From NCBI GenBank assembly GCA_903850915.1, contig CAINMV010000004.1, positions 1-64,000 of the forward strand: a stretch of DNA of 64,000 bases. Direction: 5' to 3'. A program made the position numbers and the translations under genes. How positions within the stretch are numbered: the stretch's first letter is position 1; each line of letters starts with the position of its first letter. Positions 20,008-62,758 of this stretch are shown here, in pieces. Source of the DNA: an uncultured Bacteroidota bacterium. Its GTDB lineage: Bacteria; Bacteroidota; Bacteroidia; UKL13-3. The notes below the pieces were generated by a model. It saw only the letters and a program-made list of their open reading frames with translations. It ran no database searches and was not told the origin of the DNA.

Positions 20008-20120
20008 GTAAGAAAATAGCAGAATAGAAAAGTTTATTTTAGTTGTAAAAGCAAAAAGAAGTTTTTTATTCCGTATTTATTGCTCTTTGGAGCTTTCGAT
20101 ACATTAAATACCCTAATTAT

Positions 20121-21369: not shown

Positions 21370-21377
21370 TATCTTTG
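21370..21377 (+). promoter_or_regulatory. -7 box of the first metal-efflux locus
   Basis: TATCTTTG matches TAnnTTTG exactly and ends 6 nt before the TTG start at 21384, so the expected transcription start coincides with the start codon. No clear -33 element, which may mean an activator is needed. Confidence 0.55.
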
Positions 21378-21383
21378 TAATCC

Positions 21384-21767
21384 TTGAAACTACTGCTGAA
21401 CATATCTATTACTTTGGTCTATCTAATCTCCGGTACTGAATTTCATCAACTTACCAAGATTCCTGCATTGGTTCACCATTACAATGAACACAAAGTAGAA
21501 AAAAATGATGTCACCTTTTGGAAATTTATAACTATGCATTATGCTAGTGGGAATTTAATTGATGCTGATCACGAAAAAGATCAGCAACTTCCGTTTAAAT
21601 CGCATGACGATTGTTTCGGATTAAATTCAGTTGCCTCCATTCCTAATTCCTTCTTTGTAATATACAAGCCAGCCTTGCACGAGGTGATATTAAATCCGGC
21701 GTGCCATTCTGGTTTCATTACACCAGGTTTTCTATCCTGTATTTGGCAACCGCCAAAATCTTGTTAA
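21384..21767 (+). CDS. Small exported leader protein of a metal-efflux locus
   Basis: 127 residues from a TTG start (MKLLLNISITLVYLISG, a signal peptide). The mature part has a His-rich helix (ALVHHYNEHK), a DADHEKDQQLPFKSHDDC block and the C-terminal IWQPPK sequence. From memory this combination recurs in an unnamed Bacteroidota family found just upstream of CzcA/CusA genes; no function has been established. The His, Asp and Cys residues could bind metal in the periplasm. It precedes the RND gene by 90 nt on the same strand, and that gap contains a 19-nt motif also seen in the second metal locus. Confidence 0.7.
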   Translation: MKLLLNISITLVYLISGTEFHQLTKIPALVHHYNEHKVEKNDVTFWKFITMHYASGNLIDADHEKDQQLPFKSHDDCFGLNSVASIPNSFFVIYKPALHEVILNPACHSGFITPGFLSCIWQPPKSC

Positions 21768-21804
21768 TATACTCTTTCTTATTCTAGCGATGTTTTTTCG
21801 GCTC

Positions 21805-21823
21805 CATTACTTTGGGGTTACAT
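21805..21823 (+). promoter_or_regulatory. Shared 19-nt motif, copy A
   Basis: CATTACTTTGGGGTTACAT lies 38 nt after the leader gene stop and 35 nt before the RND start. Copy B (61055-61073) in the second metal locus matches at 16 of 19 positions, in the same relative position and orientation. The function is unknown; it could be an RNA element or operator. Confidence 0.45.
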
Positions 21824-21857
21824 CGATATATTTATAAATTAGTAACACGAGAATATT

Positions 21858-24800
21858 ATGCTCAATAAAATTATTGCATTTTCAATTAAAAATAAACTTA
21901 TTATAGGGCTTTTTGTATTAGCCCTGATAGGCTATGGCACCTATCAAACAACCATGCTTCCAATCGATGCTGTGCCTGATATTACCAACAATCAGGTTCA
22001 GGTGATTACCGTGGCGCCTTCTTTTGGTGCTAAAGATATCGAACGCTTGATTACCTTCCCAATAGAGCAGGTAAATAATAATATCAAAGGATTAAAAGAG
22101 ATTCGAAGTTTCTCGCGTTTCGGGCTTTCATTGGTAACCATTGTATTCGACGATGAAACCGATATATATTGGGCGCGTCAGCAGGTGGCAGAGCGTTTGC
22201 AAAAAGTGCAGTCGCAGATTCCACAAGGTATTGGCATACCCGAACTTGGCCCAATCACAACTGGGCTAGGAGAAATCTATCAATATGTAATTCGGCCTAA
22301 GGAAGGATATGAAAAAAAATATGATGAAACAGAACTTCGAACTATTCAAGATTGGATTGTACGTCGGCAGCTACTCGGTGTGGAAGGTATAGCTGAAGTG
22401 AGTAGCTTTGGTGGCAAGCTCAAGCAATATGAAATAGCTGTTAATCCTGACAAGCTACAATCAAATAATATTAATATCAATGATGTGTTTGAAGCTTTAT
22501 CCAAAAACAACCAAAACACGGGTGGTGCTTATATAGAGAAAGGTTCGACGGTTCTTTTTATCCGCAGCGAAGGCTTAATAGGCAGCATAGAAGACATTGA
22601 AAATATTGCTATCAAATCAACGGAGTGCGGCACCCCACTATTTATCAGAGATATCGCGGAGGTGAAAATTGGATTTGCAACACGTTATGGCGCAATGTGT
22701 TATAACGATAAGGGCGAGGTAGCCGGTGCGGTGGTGATGATGCTTAAGGGGGCCAACAGTAACTCTGTAATAAAAAATGTAAAAGAGCGGATTTTGCAAA
22801 TTCAAAAAACACTACCTGAAGGTGTGGTGATAGAGCCGTTTCTAGATCGCACAAAAATGGTAAATAATGCCATAGAGACCGTTGAGAAAAATTTATTAGA
22901 AGGTGCACTAATCGTGGTATTCATCCTTGTGCTTTTTCTGGGTAATTTTAGAGCTGGATTGCTCGTTGCATCCGTAATACCTTTATCGATGCTTTTTGCG
23001 GTGATACTAATGAATACCTTTGGCGTGAGTGGCAACCTAATGAGTTTAGGTGCTCTTGATTTTGGACTTATTGTTGATGGTGCCGTAATCATTGTGGAAG
23101 CAGTGATGCATCAGCTCTCGCATAGTAAAAAACTATCCCATATTAATAAATTGTCGGCAACTGAGATGGATTTAAATGTAAACCAATCGGCAAGCAAAAT
23201 GATGAATAGTGCTGTATTCGGACAAATTATTATTCTGATTGTTTACCTACCCATTTTTACCTTACAGGGAATTGAAGGAAAGATGTTTAAGCCGATGGCA
23301 CAGACAGTAGCCTTTGCCTTGTTAGGAGCATTTATTCTATCGCTAACCTATATTCCAATGATGAGTGCCTGGGTACTCAGCAAAAATATAAAGCATCATC
23401 CTAATTTATCCGACCGTATTATGTTTCGGATAGAGCGGGCCTATCAGTCTATTTTGATTCGTGTTTTAGAAATACCCAAAACAGTAATTGGCGCGGTTCT
23501 AATTTTATTCTTTAGCGCACTAATCACGCTTGCCATGTTAGGTGGGGAATTTATTCCTGCGTTGGAGGAAGGAGATTTTGCTGTTGACACTAGAGTACTA
23601 ACGGGTAGTAATTTAAATACCACTATAGAAAACACGCAAAAGGCTGCTCATATATTAAAAACAGAATTTCCAGAAGTTGAGAAGGTAGTTACTAAAATTG
23701 GTAGTGGCGAGGTGCCTACCGACCCAATGCCAATGGAAGCGAGTGATATGATTGTGATTATGAAAGATAAATCAGAATGGAAAGTGGCGGGTACTTTTGA
23801 TGAAATGGCGGAAAAAATGAGCACGGCTCTAGAAGCAATTCCAGGCATTACTGCAGGCTTTCAGTTTCCGGTACAAATGCGTTTTAATGAACTTATGACA
23901 GGGGCACGGCAAGATGTGGTATGTAAAATTTTTGGAGAAAACCTTGATACCTTAGCCTATTATGCGCAAAAAATTGGTGCTATTGTAAAAACGGTGGATG
24001 GCTCGCAGAATCTTTTTATTGAACCTATTTCAGGTATGCCGCAAATTGTAATCGACTACAATAGAGCAACGATTGCACAATACAATTTAAACATTGCCGA
24101 TATAAACAGGGTGGTGAATACGGCCTTTGCCGGACAAATTGCAGGATCAGTATTTGAAGGAGAGAAACGTTTTGACCTTGTGGTTCGATCACATACTGAT
24201 AAAAGAAAGAGTATAGAGGATGTGCAAAATTTACTAATACCTACTTCAGATCATACACAAATACCATTATATCAACTCGCTGATGTTCAAATTAAAGAAG
24301 GTCCCAATCAAATTCAACGCGAAGATGCCAAACGTAGAATCATCGTTGGCTTTAATGTGCGCAATCGCGATGTGCAAAGTATTGTGAACGAACTGCAACA
24401 AAAAACCGAACACGAAATAAAGTTACCGACAGGGTATTATATTACCTATGGGGGCGCTTTTGAAAATTTAAATGCAGCAAAAAAACGTTTGATGGTTGCT
24501 GTTCCAGTATCTTTAGTTTTAATATTTATACTTTTATTTTTTGCTTTTAACTCTATGAAACAAGGTTTCTTAATTTATACTGCTATTCCGCTTTCTGCCA
24601 TTGGTGGTATCTTTTTTCTTGCCCTACGTGATATGCCATTTAGCATAAGCGCTGGAGTTGGCTTTATAGCACTTTTTGGTGTAGCTGTTTTAAATGGTAT
24701 CGTATTAATTTCAGAATTCAATCAACTTAAGGCATCTGGTTTAAAAGACTTACATCGCATTGTGATTATGGGAACTAAAGTACGACTTCGGCCGGTGTTG

Positions 24801-26210
24801 ATGACCGCCTTTGTGGCATCACTTGGATTTTTACCAATGGCATTAAGTAATGGCGCTGGTGCTGAAGTACAACGACCACTTGCAACAGTGGTTATTGGTG
24901 GTTTACTCATTGCCACTTTCCTCACTTTATTTGTATTGCCTGTGCTTTATGTGATGGTAGAAAAAATGGAATTGAGGAATATTAAAGTAATGCCACAAGC
25001 TATGGTAATAATTTTATTTCTTTTTTCAATGACGGATGTGCATGCGCAAAACAAAATCACCTTATCCGCTGCTATTGATAGCACGTTGCATCAGAATAAT
25101 AAAATTAAGATAGAGAAACTAAAAGCCACTTACCAAAAACAACTTATTCAAACATCATATGATATACCCCAAGCTAATTTAATTGGGGAGTATGGGCAAA
25201 TAAATAGTGCATATAAAGATACTCGGTTTGGATTATCTCAAAGCGTCAATTTCCCTACGATATATACCAATCAGAAAAAGTGGCGAAAAGAAGAATGGAA
25301 AACTGCCGTATTAAAGGTGTCATTGCAGGAGCTAGAAACAATAAAGTTAGTAACTGATATATTTTACACGCTCGTCCTATTTAAAGAAAAAAGAAAATTA
25401 CTCCTGCAAGAAGATAGCGTTTATATGGAAATGTTAAAAAAAGCAAAAATCCGCTTATCAAAAGGAGAAACGGATATTTTGGAAGAGTTGACAATAGAGG
25501 CTCGTAGAGGAGAAATACAGATGCAATTGAAATCATTAATCCAAGAAATAGACTTACTGAAACTTCAGTTCCAACTTTTACTTAATACAGAAACATCTTT
25601 TGAACCAGCGGATGAAGAGCCACTAAATAATTTTAATTTTGGAATGGATAGTACTATAAGTATACTGCATCCTTTGATAGCAATTCAACAACAATCGTTA
25701 ATGAATGCGAAAGCATATACTAATATAGAAAAATCCAAACTACTACCTGATATCAGTTTCAATTATTACAACACGAGTATGCAAGGTACAGGTGCTAATA
25801 ATCAACAATATTCGGCAGCAGCACGTTTTAATTCTGTTCAAATCGGTTTGGGTGTTCCTATAATTTGTAAGGCACAAAAAGCGCGAGTTAAAGCATCCAA
25901 AGCGAATGAGGCTGTTGAAACACAAAATATAAATGAGCAAATGAAACAATTAGAAATTCGACTAAAATCGGCCATCGTGATATATAAATCAAATATCCAA
26001 TCGATGCGGTATTATGAATTAGAGGCCTTGCCTCATGCTTTAATAATTCGTGAAACAGCAAGAAAGAAACTGGAGACCGGCGATATCAACTACCTTGATT
26101 GGGTAATACTTCAGAATCAAGCTGTGGAGATAGAAAATAACTATTTGGATACCTTAAAATTAGTTCATCAAAGCATTTCAGAAATAAAATATATAACAAC
26201 AAAATTATAA
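21858..26210 (+). CDS. CzcA-type heavy-metal RND permease fused to a TolC-like outer-membrane factor
   Basis: 1450 residues. Residues 1 to about 1040 are a full HME-RND pump with twelve membrane helices and two large periplasmic loops. The TM4 proton-relay segment reads DFGLIVDGAVIIVEA, close to the CzcA (Zn/Co/Cd) pattern DFGxxxDGAxxxVEN but with Ala for the final Asn. Residues about 1064-1450 are TolC-like, with paired long helices and the OEP repeat pattern. At the junction (1045-1064) sits a signal-peptide-like segment ending VHAQ. Such fusions recur in Bacteroidota. It exports metal cations across both membranes with the adaptor encoded 6 nt downstream. Confidence 0.93.
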   Translation: MLNKIIAFSIKNKLIIGLFVLALIGYGTYQTTMLPIDAVPDITNNQVQVITVAPSFGAKDIERLITFPIEQVNNNIKGLKEIRSFSRFGLSLVTIVFDDETDIYWARQQVAERLQKVQSQIPQGIGIPELGPITTGLGEIYQYVIRPKEGYEKKYDETELRTIQDWIVRRQLLGVEGIAEVSSFGGKLKQYEIAVNPDKLQSNNININDVFEALSKNNQNTGGAYIEKGSTVLFIRSEGLIGSIEDIENIAIKSTECGTPLFIRDIAEVKIGFATRYGAMCYNDKGEVAGAVVMMLKGANSNSVIKNVKERILQIQKTLPEGVVIEPFLDRTKMVNNAIETVEKNLLEGALIVVFILVLFLGNFRAGLLVASVIPLSMLFAVILMNTFGVSGNLMSLGALDFGLIVDGAVIIVEAVMHQLSHSKKLSHINKLSATEMDLNVNQSASKMMNSAVFGQIIILIVYLPIFTLQGIEGKMFKPMAQTVAFALLGAFILSLTYIPMMSAWVLSKNIKHHPNLSDRIMFRIERAYQSILIRVLEIPKTVIGAVLILFFSALITLAMLGGEFIPALEEGDFAVDTRVLTGSNLNTTIENTQKAAHILKTEFPEVEKVVTKIGSGEVPTDPMPMEASDMIVIMKDKSEWKVAGTFDEMAEKMSTALEAIPGITAGFQFPVQMRFNELMTGARQDVVCKIFGENLDTLAYYAQKIGAIVKTVDGSQNLFIEPISGMPQIVIDYNRATIAQYNLNIADINRVVNTAFAGQIAGSVFEGEKRFDLVVRSHTDKRKSIEDVQNLLIPTSDHTQIPLYQLADVQIKEGPNQIQREDAKRRIIVGFNVRNRDVQSIVNELQQKTEHEIKLPTGYYITYGGAFENLNAAKKRLMVAVPVSLVLIFILLFFAFNSMKQGFLIYTAIPLSAIGGIFFLALRDMPFSISAGVGFIALFGVAVLNGIVLISEFNQLKASGLKDLHRIVIMGTKVRLRPVLMTAFVASLGFLPMALSNGAGAEVQRPLATVVIGGLLIATFLTLFVLPVLYVMVEKMELRNIKVMPQAMVIILFLFSMTDVHAQNKITLSAAIDSTLHQNNKIKIEKLKATYQKQLIQTSYDIPQANLIGEYGQINSAYKDTRFGLSQSVNFPTIYTNQKKWRKEEWKTAVLKVSLQELETIKLVTDIFYTLVLFKEKRKLLLQEDSVYMEMLKKAKIRLSKGETDILEELTIEARRGEIQMQLKSLIQEIDLLKLQFQLLLNTETSFEPADEEPLNNFNFGMDSTISILHPLIAIQQQSLMNAKAYTNIEKSKLLPDISFNYYNTSMQGTGANNQQYSAAARFNSVQIGLGVPIICKAQKARVKASKANEAVETQNINEQMKQLEIRLKSAIVIYKSNIQSMRYYELEALPHALIIRETARKKLETGDINYLDWVILQNQAVEIENNYLDTLKLVHQSISEIKYITTKL

Positions 26211-52973: not shown

Positions 52974-53081
52974 TTTATTTTAATATCATTATTTTTTAGG
53001 ATTTAAAGTTTTTTACCACAACTGGTCTTTCATTTTCGTTTCTAATCATTAATTTTCATTTGTATTCCGTAATTTTACACC

Positions 53082-60607: not shown

Positions 60608-60636
60608 TTGCAATTCATAAAATAGTACTACCTTGC
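60608..60636 (+). promoter_or_regulatory. Putative promoter of the second metal-efflux locus
   Basis: TTG at 60608-60610, an 18-nt spacer and TACCTTGC at 60629-60636 (one mismatch from TAnnTTTG). The -7 box ends 7 nt before the TTG start at 60644, so the mRNA would be leaderless or nearly so. Confidence 0.5.
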
Positions 60637-61030: not shown

Positions 61031-61054
61031 AAAATTTCTTTTTTATTGTTGCCT

Positions 61055-61073
61055 CATTCCTATGGGGTTATAT
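61055..61073 (+). promoter_or_regulatory. Shared 19-nt motif, copy B
   Basis: CATTCCTATGGGGTTATAT lies 25 nt after the leader gene stop. It matches copy A (21805-21823) at 16 of 19 positions and is directly upstream of an intrinsic terminator hairpin. The function is unknown. Confidence 0.45.
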
Positions 61074-61077
61074 TTTT

Positions 61078-61116
61078 ATTTGCCTACTTCAAGGCAAATT
61101 CATTTTTATTTTTTAA
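61078..61116 (+). terminator. Intrinsic terminator between the leader gene and the HMA/CusA genes
   Basis: ATTTGCCT (61078-61085), a 6-nt loop and AGGCAAAT (61092-61099) form a perfect 8-bp stem followed by a T-rich run (TCATTTTTATTTTTTAA). It precedes the HMA gene start by 18 nt, so it could attenuate downstream expression. Confidence 0.75.
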
Positions 61117-61133
61117 TTATTTAATTATAGTAT

Positions 61134-61478
61134 ATGAAAAAGTTCACTTTAATAGTATTCGGTGTATTTGCCTTATACATCTGTACTTCAGCACAAACAG
61201 CATCTAAAAAAACCGAAAAGGTAAAAATTTATGGAAATTGTGATATGTGTAAAACAACGATTGAAGGAGCCTTAAAAAAGAAAGATGGTGTAATAACACG
61301 CAATTGGGATACGGAAACAAAAATTCTAACTGTTACGTATGAACCTTCTAAGGTAAACTTAAAACAGATACTGCAAAAAATAGCCGATGTAGGCTATGAC
61401 TCAGATACTGTAAAAGCCTCTACGGAAATATATAATAAACTTCCGAAATGCTGCAGGTACGATAGACCAAAAAAATAA
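61134..61478 (+). CDS. Secreted heavy-metal-associated (HMA) domain protein
   Basis: 114 residues with a signal peptide (MKKFTLIVFGVFALYICTSAQ). An HMA (Atx1-like) domain spans about 27-90 with the metal motif GNCDMCKTTIE (CxxC) and the second-half strand VTYEPSKVNLKQILQKIADV with GYDSD. A CC pair near the end (LPKCCRY) may add ligands. It is a likely periplasmic Cu(I)/Ag(I) or related metal carrier feeding the CusA-type pump, whose gene begins 8 nt downstream. Confidence 0.88.
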   Translation: MKKFTLIVFGVFALYICTSAQTASKKTEKVKIYGNCDMCKTTIEGALKKKDGVITRNWDTETKILTVTYEPSKVNLKQILQKIADVGYDSDTVKASTEIYNKLPKCCRYDRPKK

Positions 61479-61486
61479 CCATTGTT

Positions 61487-62758
61487 ATGGTAAAAAAGCT
61501 TATTTCGTTTTCGCTGCACAACCGTTGGCTTGTGTTGCTTTTTGGCATTGCCCTACTCCTCTGGGGAGTTTATTCTGTAGAAAAGAATCCGGTTGATGCG
61601 ATACCAGATCTTTCAGAAAACCAAGTTATTGTTTTCACAGAATGGGAAGGTCGTAGCCCTCAGATTATAGAGGATCAAATAACCTACCCGCTAGTTTCGA
61701 ATCTACAAAGTATTCCGAAAATAAAAAATGTTCGTGGTTCTTCGATGTTTGGAATGAGTTTCGTGTATGTTGTTTTCGACGACAACGTAGATATATACTG
61801 GGCGCGAACAAGAGTACTAGAGAAATTAAACTATGCGCAGCGACTCTTACCGGAAAATGTAACACCAGCATTAGGGCCTGATGGCACTGGGGTGGGGCAT
61901 ATTTATTGGTACACATTGGATGCACCCAATTATAATTTAGGAGAACTGAGAGCTTTGCAAGATTGGTATATTAAATATGGATTACAAACAGTAAAAGGAG
62001 TGGCAGAAATTGCATCCTTTGGTGGCTTCCAAAAGCAATATCAGATAAATATTGATCCTCATAAACTTAATTATTACAATGTAACTATGATGGATGTTTT
62101 GAAAGCCGTTAAAAGTAATAATAATGATGTAGGAGGACGTAAATTTGAAATGAGTGGTATGGGATATATAGTGCGAGGATTGGGATATATTGAAAACATA
62201 AAAGATATAGAAAGTATCCCAGTTGGAAAAGATGGCTCCACCTCCATTACCATTCAAGACGTGGCTACGGTGCAAATGGGCGGAGATTTGCGGTTAGGCA
62301 TATTTGATGAAAATGGAGAAGGTGAAGTAGTTGGTGGTATTGTGGTAATGCGTTATGGCGAAAACGCCGATGCTGTTATACAAGATGTGAAATCGAAAAT
62401 AGTAGACATTGAAAAGGGACTTCCTGTAGGCGTTAAAATAAAAACCGCTTACGATAGAAGCACCTTAATTGCAGCAGCAATAAAATCAGTGAAAGGCACG
62501 CTGTATGAGGAAATACTTGTAGTATGCTTAATCGTGATTATTTTTCTATTCCATTGGAGGAGCGCTTTCATTATCATTATTCAAATTCCAATATCCATTG
62601 CAGCCGCATTTATTTTACTCAACACGTTTGGCATTTCATCAAACATCATGTCGATTACCGGAATAGCATTGGCAATTGGCGTTATCGTTGATGATGGTAT
62701 TGTAATGGTTGAAAATTCCTATCGACACTTAGCAGAGTTTCAAAATAAAAAAGCTTAG
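61487..62758 (+). pseudogene. CusA-type heavy-metal RND permease, N-terminal part (frame-disrupted)
   Basis: 423 codons: TM1, the first periplasmic loop (DAIPDLSENQVIVFTEWEGR, DIYWARTRVLEKL, LGPDGTGVGHIYWYTL) and TM2-TM4. TM4 reads AIGVIVDDGIVMVEN, close to the CusA (Cu/Ag) pattern. The frame ends with a stop right after YRHLAEFQNKKA, between TM4 and TM5, where other CusA proteins continue. The rest of the protein is encoded from 62749/62761 in another frame. One extra A in the A6 run at 62747-62752 would restore a single frame. It is unclear whether this is a real lesion, a sequence error or a working split gene. Confidence 0.75.

Follow-up and report, generated by a model that had tools for sequence, protein, structure and literature searches.

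Leader genes ahead of metal-RND efflux pumps in Bacteroidota as candidate nascent-chain metal sensors

The window analysed here, a 64,000-nt stretch of contig CAINMV010000004.1 from an uncultured Bacteroidota bacterium, contains two loci in which a small leader gene precedes metal-efflux genes, with predicted RNA hairpins in the gap that follows the leader. Locus 1 comprises the following features.

21370–21377, plus strand: −7 promoter box TATCTTTG of the TAnnTTTG type, assigned from the sequence; the layout recurs in relatives, and the box position (−12 to −5) is that given in PMC9723704
21384–21767, plus strand: leader 1 (family A), 127 aa, TTG start, ending in CIWQPPKSC, from profile searches of the order and the class
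21750–21755, plus strand: codons of Pro123 and Pro124 in the C-terminal WQPPK, four codons ahead of the stop
21788–21825, plus strand: hairpin of gap 1 (−12.6 kcal/mol), in which a 19-mer (21805–21823) forms the loop and the 3′ arm
21858–26210, plus strand: CzcA/CusA-type RND pump fused to an outer-membrane efflux domain (TIGR00914, 1161.7 bits, cut-off 701.45; OEP domain)

Transcription of this locus is predicted to start about 2 nt ahead of the leader start codon. Leader 1 has no match in Pfam or NCBIfam. The region 21789–21830, folded alone, adopts the structure GAUGU...GGCUCCA-UUACUU-UGGGGUU-ACAUC (−11.9 kcal/mol, z −4.3). Locus 2 comprises the following features.

60629–60636, plus strand: TACCTTGC, fitting the TAnnTTGY box, 7 nt ahead of the start of leader 2 (by sequence; motif from PMC9723704)
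60644–61030, plus strand: leader 2 (HYC_CC_PP family), 128 aa, TTG start (NF047658, 56.1 bits, cut-off 28)
61051–61068, plus strand: first hairpin of gap 2 (−7.9 kcal/mol, z −2.5); a second 19-mer (61055–61073) runs from within its 5′ arm through the loop and 3′ arm
61078–61099, plus strand: second, terminator-like hairpin of gap 2, with a T-rich tail behind it (−8.9 kcal/mol, z −3.6; picked as a U-tail hairpin)
61134–61478, plus strand: small exported-looking HMA-domain protein (PF00403, 37.6 bits, cut-off 24.8)
61487–62758, plus strand: N-terminal portion of a split CusA, with the C-terminal portion coming next (match from 62782), as seen from TIGR00914 matches in two frames and from the sequence at the break

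The box of leader 2 is of the TAnnTTGY type described for F. psychrophilum (PMC9723704), instead of TAnnTTTG. Folded alone, 61050–61078 forms GCCUCAU-UCCU-AUGGGGU (−7.9 kcal/mol, z −2.5), and both 19-mers are mainly the loop and 3′ arm of local RNA hairpins. The CusA of this locus occupies two ORFs (61487–62758 and from 62761/62782). C-terminal CusA halves beginning at model position ~415–433 were also seen in genomes G002 (two), G028, G029, G030 and G047, some of them near an HYC_CC_PP leader; given these similar halves, the division into two ORFs seems to be genuine and not an error of sequencing, and its arrangement varies. Profile comparison of the two leaders aligns only 20 N-terminal columns, a signal-like stretch, and their homology is not supported, in agreement with the initial annotation, where they were considered not obviously homologous. 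A search of the window against Rfam 15 at gathering scores yielded only tRNA, and no family in either gap. Elsewhere in the window, TTTGTATTCCGTAATT is present in two exact copies and one with 2 mismatches (1535–1550, 53059–53074 and 20063–20078, respectively; 0.18 expected), the exact copies lying 35 and 7 nt ahead of the ORFs at 1586 and 53082.

Family A is present in 55 of the 64 order genomes searched at E up to 0.1 and in 164 of 396 class genomes, and HYC_CC_PP scored over its curated cut-off in 47 of the 64 order genomes. The weakest matches were left out before counting (6 of 61 for leader 1 in the order, 6 of 66 for HYC_CC_PP), as were one leader whose stop is not reached before the contig end (L135) and two with no gap (L125, L203); one locus with a gap of 24 nt (L128) was left out of the hairpin test. 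The class set consists of 79 leaders examined among the matches listed, members of the window's own family being omitted as already present in the order set.

Five positions, His32, His52, Pro70, Pro123, and Pro124, are invariant in 96 aligned family-A leaders. The PP pair lies within the last 13 residues in all members examined (54 of 54 in the order, 79 of 79 in the class), 2–4 residues from the stop in 123 of 133, and the C-terminus conforms to [WF]QPP[KRQ] in 53 of 54 order and 63 of 79 class leaders. The PP is preceded by WQ, FQ, FH, FR, WH, WR, and few others, and by RA or RG in none of the 133, so that motifs of the RAPP/RGPP/RAGP type do not occur among them. In the HYC_CC_PP leaders, PP is found 9–18 residues from the end and is missing in eight out of 60.

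With starts assigned by rule (the nearest start-like codon followed by K/R), family-A leaders are 101–134 aa long in the order (54 leaders) and 121–141 aa in the class (79 leaders), that is, below the 150 residues that bound the CutF-like proteins of PMC9973294. The same source places PP within 15 residues of the C-terminus, which holds for 133 of 133 family-A leaders and for only 16 of 60 HYC_CC_PP leaders, and hence leader 2 mostly fails this part of the CutF-like definition. A metal gene on the same strand after a gap of less than 1,000 nt, likewise part of that definition, follows the family-A leaders: by a pattern test that gives a lower bound, the next ORF starts like CusA/CzcA in at least 49 of 53 order and 60 of 78 class loci. 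The Sec signal peptide of that definition was approximated by a crude rule (K/R in residues 2–5 plus a hydrophobic stretch), which is satisfied by 44 of 54 order and 79 of 79 class family-A leaders and by 58 of 60 HYC_CC_PP leaders; judging by sequence, the family-A leader is probably exported. Membership of these leaders in DUF2946 (PF11162) was rejected on Pfam scans, where none of 24 family-A and 24 HYC_CC_PP leaders matched the domain at E up to 10, and none of the 64 order genomes had it over the cut-off. The structure model of family A is helical and fairly confident (mean pLDDT 84.6), a fold search with it gave no matches at E up to 10, and comparison with solved structures by sequence yielded one weak match for each of the two leader profiles (E 0.27 and 0.072).

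The leaders have a characteristic position relative to promoters. A TAnnTTTG box is present within 150 nt upstream of the leader start in 38 of 52 family-A and 36 of 60 HYC_CC_PP loci (approximately 7.8 expected in each), compared with none of 52 and two of 60 within the leader gaps themselves (6.6 and 5.8 expected); the looser TAnnTTGY box occurs in seven of 53 order family-A, seven of 78 class family-A, and four of 60 HYC_CC_PP gaps. Within 35 nt of the start, TAnnTTTG is found in 33 of 54 order and 61 of 79 class family-A loci, ending 4–7 nt ahead of the assigned start in 28 and 54 of them, respectively; these distances lean short, since the starts are rule-assigned and the box search for Cys leaders was limited to 0–12 nt past the box. 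By the same rule, 49 of 54 order and 51 of 79 class leaders begin with TTG, GTG, or CTG. In F. psychrophilum, the −7 box lies at −12 to −5, and 5.5% of the mRNAs are leaderless (PMC9723704). Taking this span and the observed spacing into account, family-A transcripts are predicted to have their first base on the start codon or no more than about three bases away from it. Starts with TTG, GTG, or CTG directly behind the promoter box are almost the rule among the order family-A leaders, even though leaderless mRNAs are, according to PMC9723704, rare in a flavobacterium.

Among 79 CusA-class genes of the order with the N-terminus covered (12 rows covering only the late part were left out), 49 have a family-A leader just upstream, the proportion being 44 of 57 for those above 1,100 bits. 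The other 30 are preceded by an ORF ending in IWQPPK (10 genes), an ORF ending in TPPP[KQ][AG] (three), an ORF with a shared end, putatively a CusB-type adaptor (11), or another ORF (two), and four have no detected leader, three of these being at contig ends. All four IWQPPK leaders tested are Cys-rich members of DUF6660 (PF20365), a family that, like the HYC_CC_PP family of leader 2, has no assigned function. The short ORFs ending in TPPPKA or TPPPQG ahead of CusA (L246, L247, L248) have no Pfam match and perhaps represent a further leader type. According to hhalign, family A and DUF6660 align over 55 columns that extend to the WQPPK end (probability 97%); with 25 N-terminal and nine C-terminal residues removed, the probability is 4%. 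The shared WQPPK end therefore stands out between two families that have no convincing similarity once their termini are removed.

The gaps of the DUF6660-type loci contain a covarying RNA. A first model built from six such gaps gave 16 matches in 15 of the 396 genomes, 14 of them exactly between a WQPPK leader and CusA (11 with a Cys-type leader, three with family A), the remaining two being the antisense of another match and a chance match. The refined model, built from 20 sequences and including a closing stem, gave 15 matches in the 396 genomes, the same 14 and one chance match; L238 was left out of the RNA-model search, and L241 was searched with no match. The RNA extends from the leader stop codon to before the CusA ATG and has three helices. 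Two are hairpins; the third, the closing stem UAAUGAAU/AUUCAUUA, was read in 14 of the 19 structures folded and joins the leader stop codon to the sequence immediately ahead of CusA. Two-sided changes are seen in 20 of 27 pairs (65 cells versus 15.2, sd 3.6, in shuffles), in an alignment fitted to the structure of the model and therefore favouring it; by helix, they affect seven of seven and 11 of 12 pairs in the hairpins and only two of eight in the closing stem, which is mostly invariant. In an independent MAFFT alignment, four of 11 pairs of the second hairpin have two-sided changes, and the first hairpin is not predicted. The covarying RNA matched no Rfam family: five of its loci, scanned against Rfam 15 at E up to 1, gave only Flavo-1 RNA (RF01705, 55.4 bits) at 59–130 of L161, a part of that locus away from the element. 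The window itself was rejected as a member, as the refined model has no match in it and the first model only matches with E 1.3 and 3 away from the gaps; 60 family-A loci searched with the refined model also gave no match.

The gaps of family A and HYC_CC_PP are structured as well. The mean folding z-score is −1.65 for order family-A, −2.21 for order HYC_CC_PP, and −1.62 for class family-A gaps, whereas the 44 control gaps free of a box average −0.59 (P 2.7e-6, 1.4e-8, and 9.9e-6, respectively), and the leader gaps are not separable from control gaps containing a box; the control set is small, 74 co-directional gaps (44 box-free, 30 with a box) drawn from the same loci and the window. The CutF-like definition of PMC9973294 further includes metal-dependent pausing of translation and a stem-loop that shields where the next gene starts; for such a stem-loop, the signal is strong in the DUF6660 gap RNA. 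Taken together, the 59 class family-A gaps also show excess pairing between the leader stop and pump start regions (mean z −1.43, P 8.8e-8), the order family-A and HYC_CC_PP sets do not, and in the two gaps of the window this pairing is no better than in shuffles (P 0.25 and 0.71). Pairing of the last 45 nt of the leader with the gap has a mean z of −0.81 (P 3e-5) in order family A, −0.26 (P 0.04) in class family A, and 0.02 in HYC_CC_PP, which is only a hint. Three small groups of closely related order gaps show little covariation, with 0, 1, and 0 pairs changed on both sides.

These features can be compared with known leaders. The leaders CutF and CruR, both exported, carry metal ligands and end near a PP pair, and they control the next metal gene via translation arrest combined with RNA structure or Rho (PMC9973294, PMC9426467). 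CutF from Rhodobacter capsulatus, as described in PMC9973294, resembles the leaders studied here in being a small exported protein with metal ligands and PP near the C-terminus, encoded by the first gene ahead of a metal gene and followed by RNA structure in the gap. Family A differs from it in having His rather than CxxxC, an end of the form [WF]QPP[KR], and a mostly non-AUG start directly behind the promoter box, and in giving no match to DUF2946. CruR from Bordetella pertussis, a DUF2946 protein, also has a Cys metal motif and PP three residues from the C-terminal end, whereas its RAPP motif, Rho-dependent termination, and control of an importer are different (PMC9426467). The distance from Cys to PP is 45 residues in CruR and CutF and 41–42 residues in all nine DUF6660 loci with the full Cys motif, being conserved in both cases; in families A and HYC_CC_PP, the ligand-to-PP spacing is loose. 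The arrest by CruR has been demonstrated in vitro (PMC12992588), and the same paper reports RAPP/RGPP leaders of Cu-related genes as not found in Bacteroidota. Similarly, SecM, ApdA, ApdP, and RQH are exported products of upstream ORFs, and a proline motif at their C-terminus arrests the ribosome, by which an RNA structure ahead of the following gene is opened; unlike the leaders considered here, they control secA, secDF, or yidC, carry no metal ligands, and have a RAPP-like motif rather than WQPP (PMC10987492).

The leaders agree with CutF and CruR in length, ligands, placement of PP, place in the operon, and structured gaps, and so most likely act as these do. We consider it somewhat better than an even prospect that they form a system of CutF/CruR-like nascent-chain metal sensors controlling the metal-RND pump, the stalling and metal binding being drawn from the comparison with these proteins. 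This reading is built on the gene order, the conserved residues, the promoter-to-start spacing, the gap structure, and the covariation in DUF6660-type loci. The small, probably exported protein with its metal-ligand residues would be made first from the pump transcript, ending in [WF]QPP[KR] a few codons ahead of the stop. If the emerging chain met metal beyond the membrane, translation would slow or stall at the C-terminal prolines, and the ribosome held at the leader end would keep the gap RNA out of its resting fold, allowing the pump to be expressed, a direction of response that is inferred. The resting fold would be a stem pairing the leader stop region with the pump start region in many species; in the order to which the window belongs, hairpins resembling terminators would take its place, those of the two window gaps being only candidates for this role. 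The contact of a stalled ribosome with the gap RNA would be marginal, as a ribosome at PP is estimated to reach only about the stop codon. Further points count against the sensor reading, namely, the WQPP motif in place of the experimentally demonstrated RAPP, the crudeness of the signal-peptide rule, the lack of the covarying RNA in the window gaps and in the 60 family-A loci searched, the stop-to-start pairing of the window gaps and of the order sets, the weak excess of U-tail hairpins in the class, the loose ligand-to-PP spacing in families A and HYC_CC_PP, the TAnnTTGY boxes inside some gaps, and the distant or missing PP of HYC_CC_PP leaders.

A wider form of this proposal, to which we incline slightly less than to its opposite, is that several unrelated or barely related nascent-chain sensors (the His-type family A, the Cys-type DUF6660, HYC_CC_PP, and the TPPP-ending type) stand over CusA/CzcA pumps of Bacteroidota, that their common [WF]QPP[KR] end would stall the ribosome at the leader stop and open an RNA switch between this stop codon and the pump start, and that their transcripts would start at or a few bases from the non-AUG leader start. 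Since Bacteroidota are described as a phylum without Shine-Dalgarno sites (PMC6847099), the stem would cover the pump start region rather than a Shine-Dalgarno sequence; in the wider form, control would act at the start site in the absence of such sequences.

Alternatively, the leader could be a periplasmic metal-binding accessory protein, made in excess over the pump due to the gap hairpin, which would partially stop transcription or stabilise the leader mRNA, with QPP serving the protein and not the ribosome. The conserved His residues, the fairly confident helical model, and the terminator-like hairpins of the order gaps are all consistent with this explanation, as is the fact that stalling at these leaders is argued by analogy. 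However, it accounts poorly for the nearly fixed distance from PP to the stop, for the little that family A and DUF6660 have in common beyond a signal-like start and the WQPPK end, and for the ability of the covarying RNA to pair the leader stop codon with the pump start region; we consider it possible, at clearly lower odds than the sensor reading.

The hairpins could also act as plain transcription attenuators, where hairpin and U tail halt the RNA polymerase if no coupled ribosome or factor prevents it, with no nascent-chain metal sensor involved. U-tail hairpins (−4 kcal/mol or lower), one of which lies in gap 2 of the window, are indeed found in 29 of 52 order family-A and 26 of 60 order HYC_CC_PP gaps, far above the shuffles (approximately 0.12 and 0.11 per gap) and the reverse strand (0 and 4). 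In the class, though, family A shows only a weak excess (22 of 78 gaps, compared with 0.13 per gap in shuffles and seven on the reverse strand). Control gaps containing a box carry such hairpins as well (16 of 30, compared with six of 44 box-free ones), so that a hairpin alone is not special. As attenuation also leaves the conserved C-terminal prolines unexplained, we regard it as improbable.

Attention had been drawn to these loci by the pair of 19-mers, which are indeed found at 21805–21823 and 61055–61073 in the same orientation and identical in 16 of 19 positions. The initial annotation placed them between a small leader ORF and metal genes, which is correct with the amendment that the next gene at the second site encodes the HMA-domain protein (61134–61478), CusA coming only after it. 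Its estimate of a chance well below 5 percent does not stand: dinucleotide shuffles with the pair fixed gave P = 0.021, 0.074, and 0.153 for three scores, and seven of 461 pairs among the 31 upstream-oriented gaps of the window, the reported pair included, reach 16/19, from among which a reader was free to notice any. In the 2.9-Mb genome of the same organism, the shared pattern fits exactly in these two places only, and with up to three mismatches it has 16 matches, compared with 10 for a reversed control pattern. With up to one mismatch, the 64 order genomes contain two matches outside the window and two control matches, that is, no enrichment, and the two matches lie inside ORFs of 380 and 217 aa unconnected with metal pumps. 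The further suggestion, a conserved RNA element or regulator site, is contradicted by 188 leader-to-next-gene gaps from other genomes, which cover the two leader families within the order and leader 1 within the class and where the best fit has at least six mismatches, compared with about five gaps at five mismatches or fewer that shuffled gaps would yield; the 19-mer is also absent upstream of the 30 further CusA genes (best fit, five mismatches). This lack of enrichment upstream of metal-RND genes is the very outcome the initial annotation had named as speaking against it. Thus, the 19-mer was rejected as a conserved motif, and its sharing by the two gaps is a coincidence; a role for it in both operons, whether as the site bound by a metal regulator or as a specific RNA element, is very unlikely, despite the 16/19 identity, the two exact fits unique in the genome, and the similar layout of both copies within hairpins, in view of its absence from these gaps and upstream regions, the lack of enrichment, and the six other gap pairs of the window that match equally well. 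The more general idea of a regulatory RNA between leader and metal-RND pump is supported for the family overall, by gaps more structured than box-free control gaps and by the strongly covarying RNA in one gap type; the window itself does not match that RNA.

Control of metal genes by leader arrest is a known kind of regulation, little studied in Bacteroidota. List D of PMC9973294 contains 5,334 CutF-like proteins, many of them from Bacteroidota (40% after normalising), and includes neighbours of the CusA/CzcA class, and hence family A may already be among them. In the open-licence literature, we found no paper naming DUF6660 or HYC_CC_PP and none on this leader system. If the sensor reading is true, most operon-leading metal efflux pumps of the order, and many in the class, would be under the control of a protein that senses metal during its own synthesis, which would clearly exemplify control by leader arrest in a phylum that lacks Shine-Dalgarno sites. 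It would also provide a testable function for three families that have none, namely, family A, DUF6660, and HYC_CC_PP, while the covarying RNA, unmatched in Rfam, is open to analysis by compensatory mutation.
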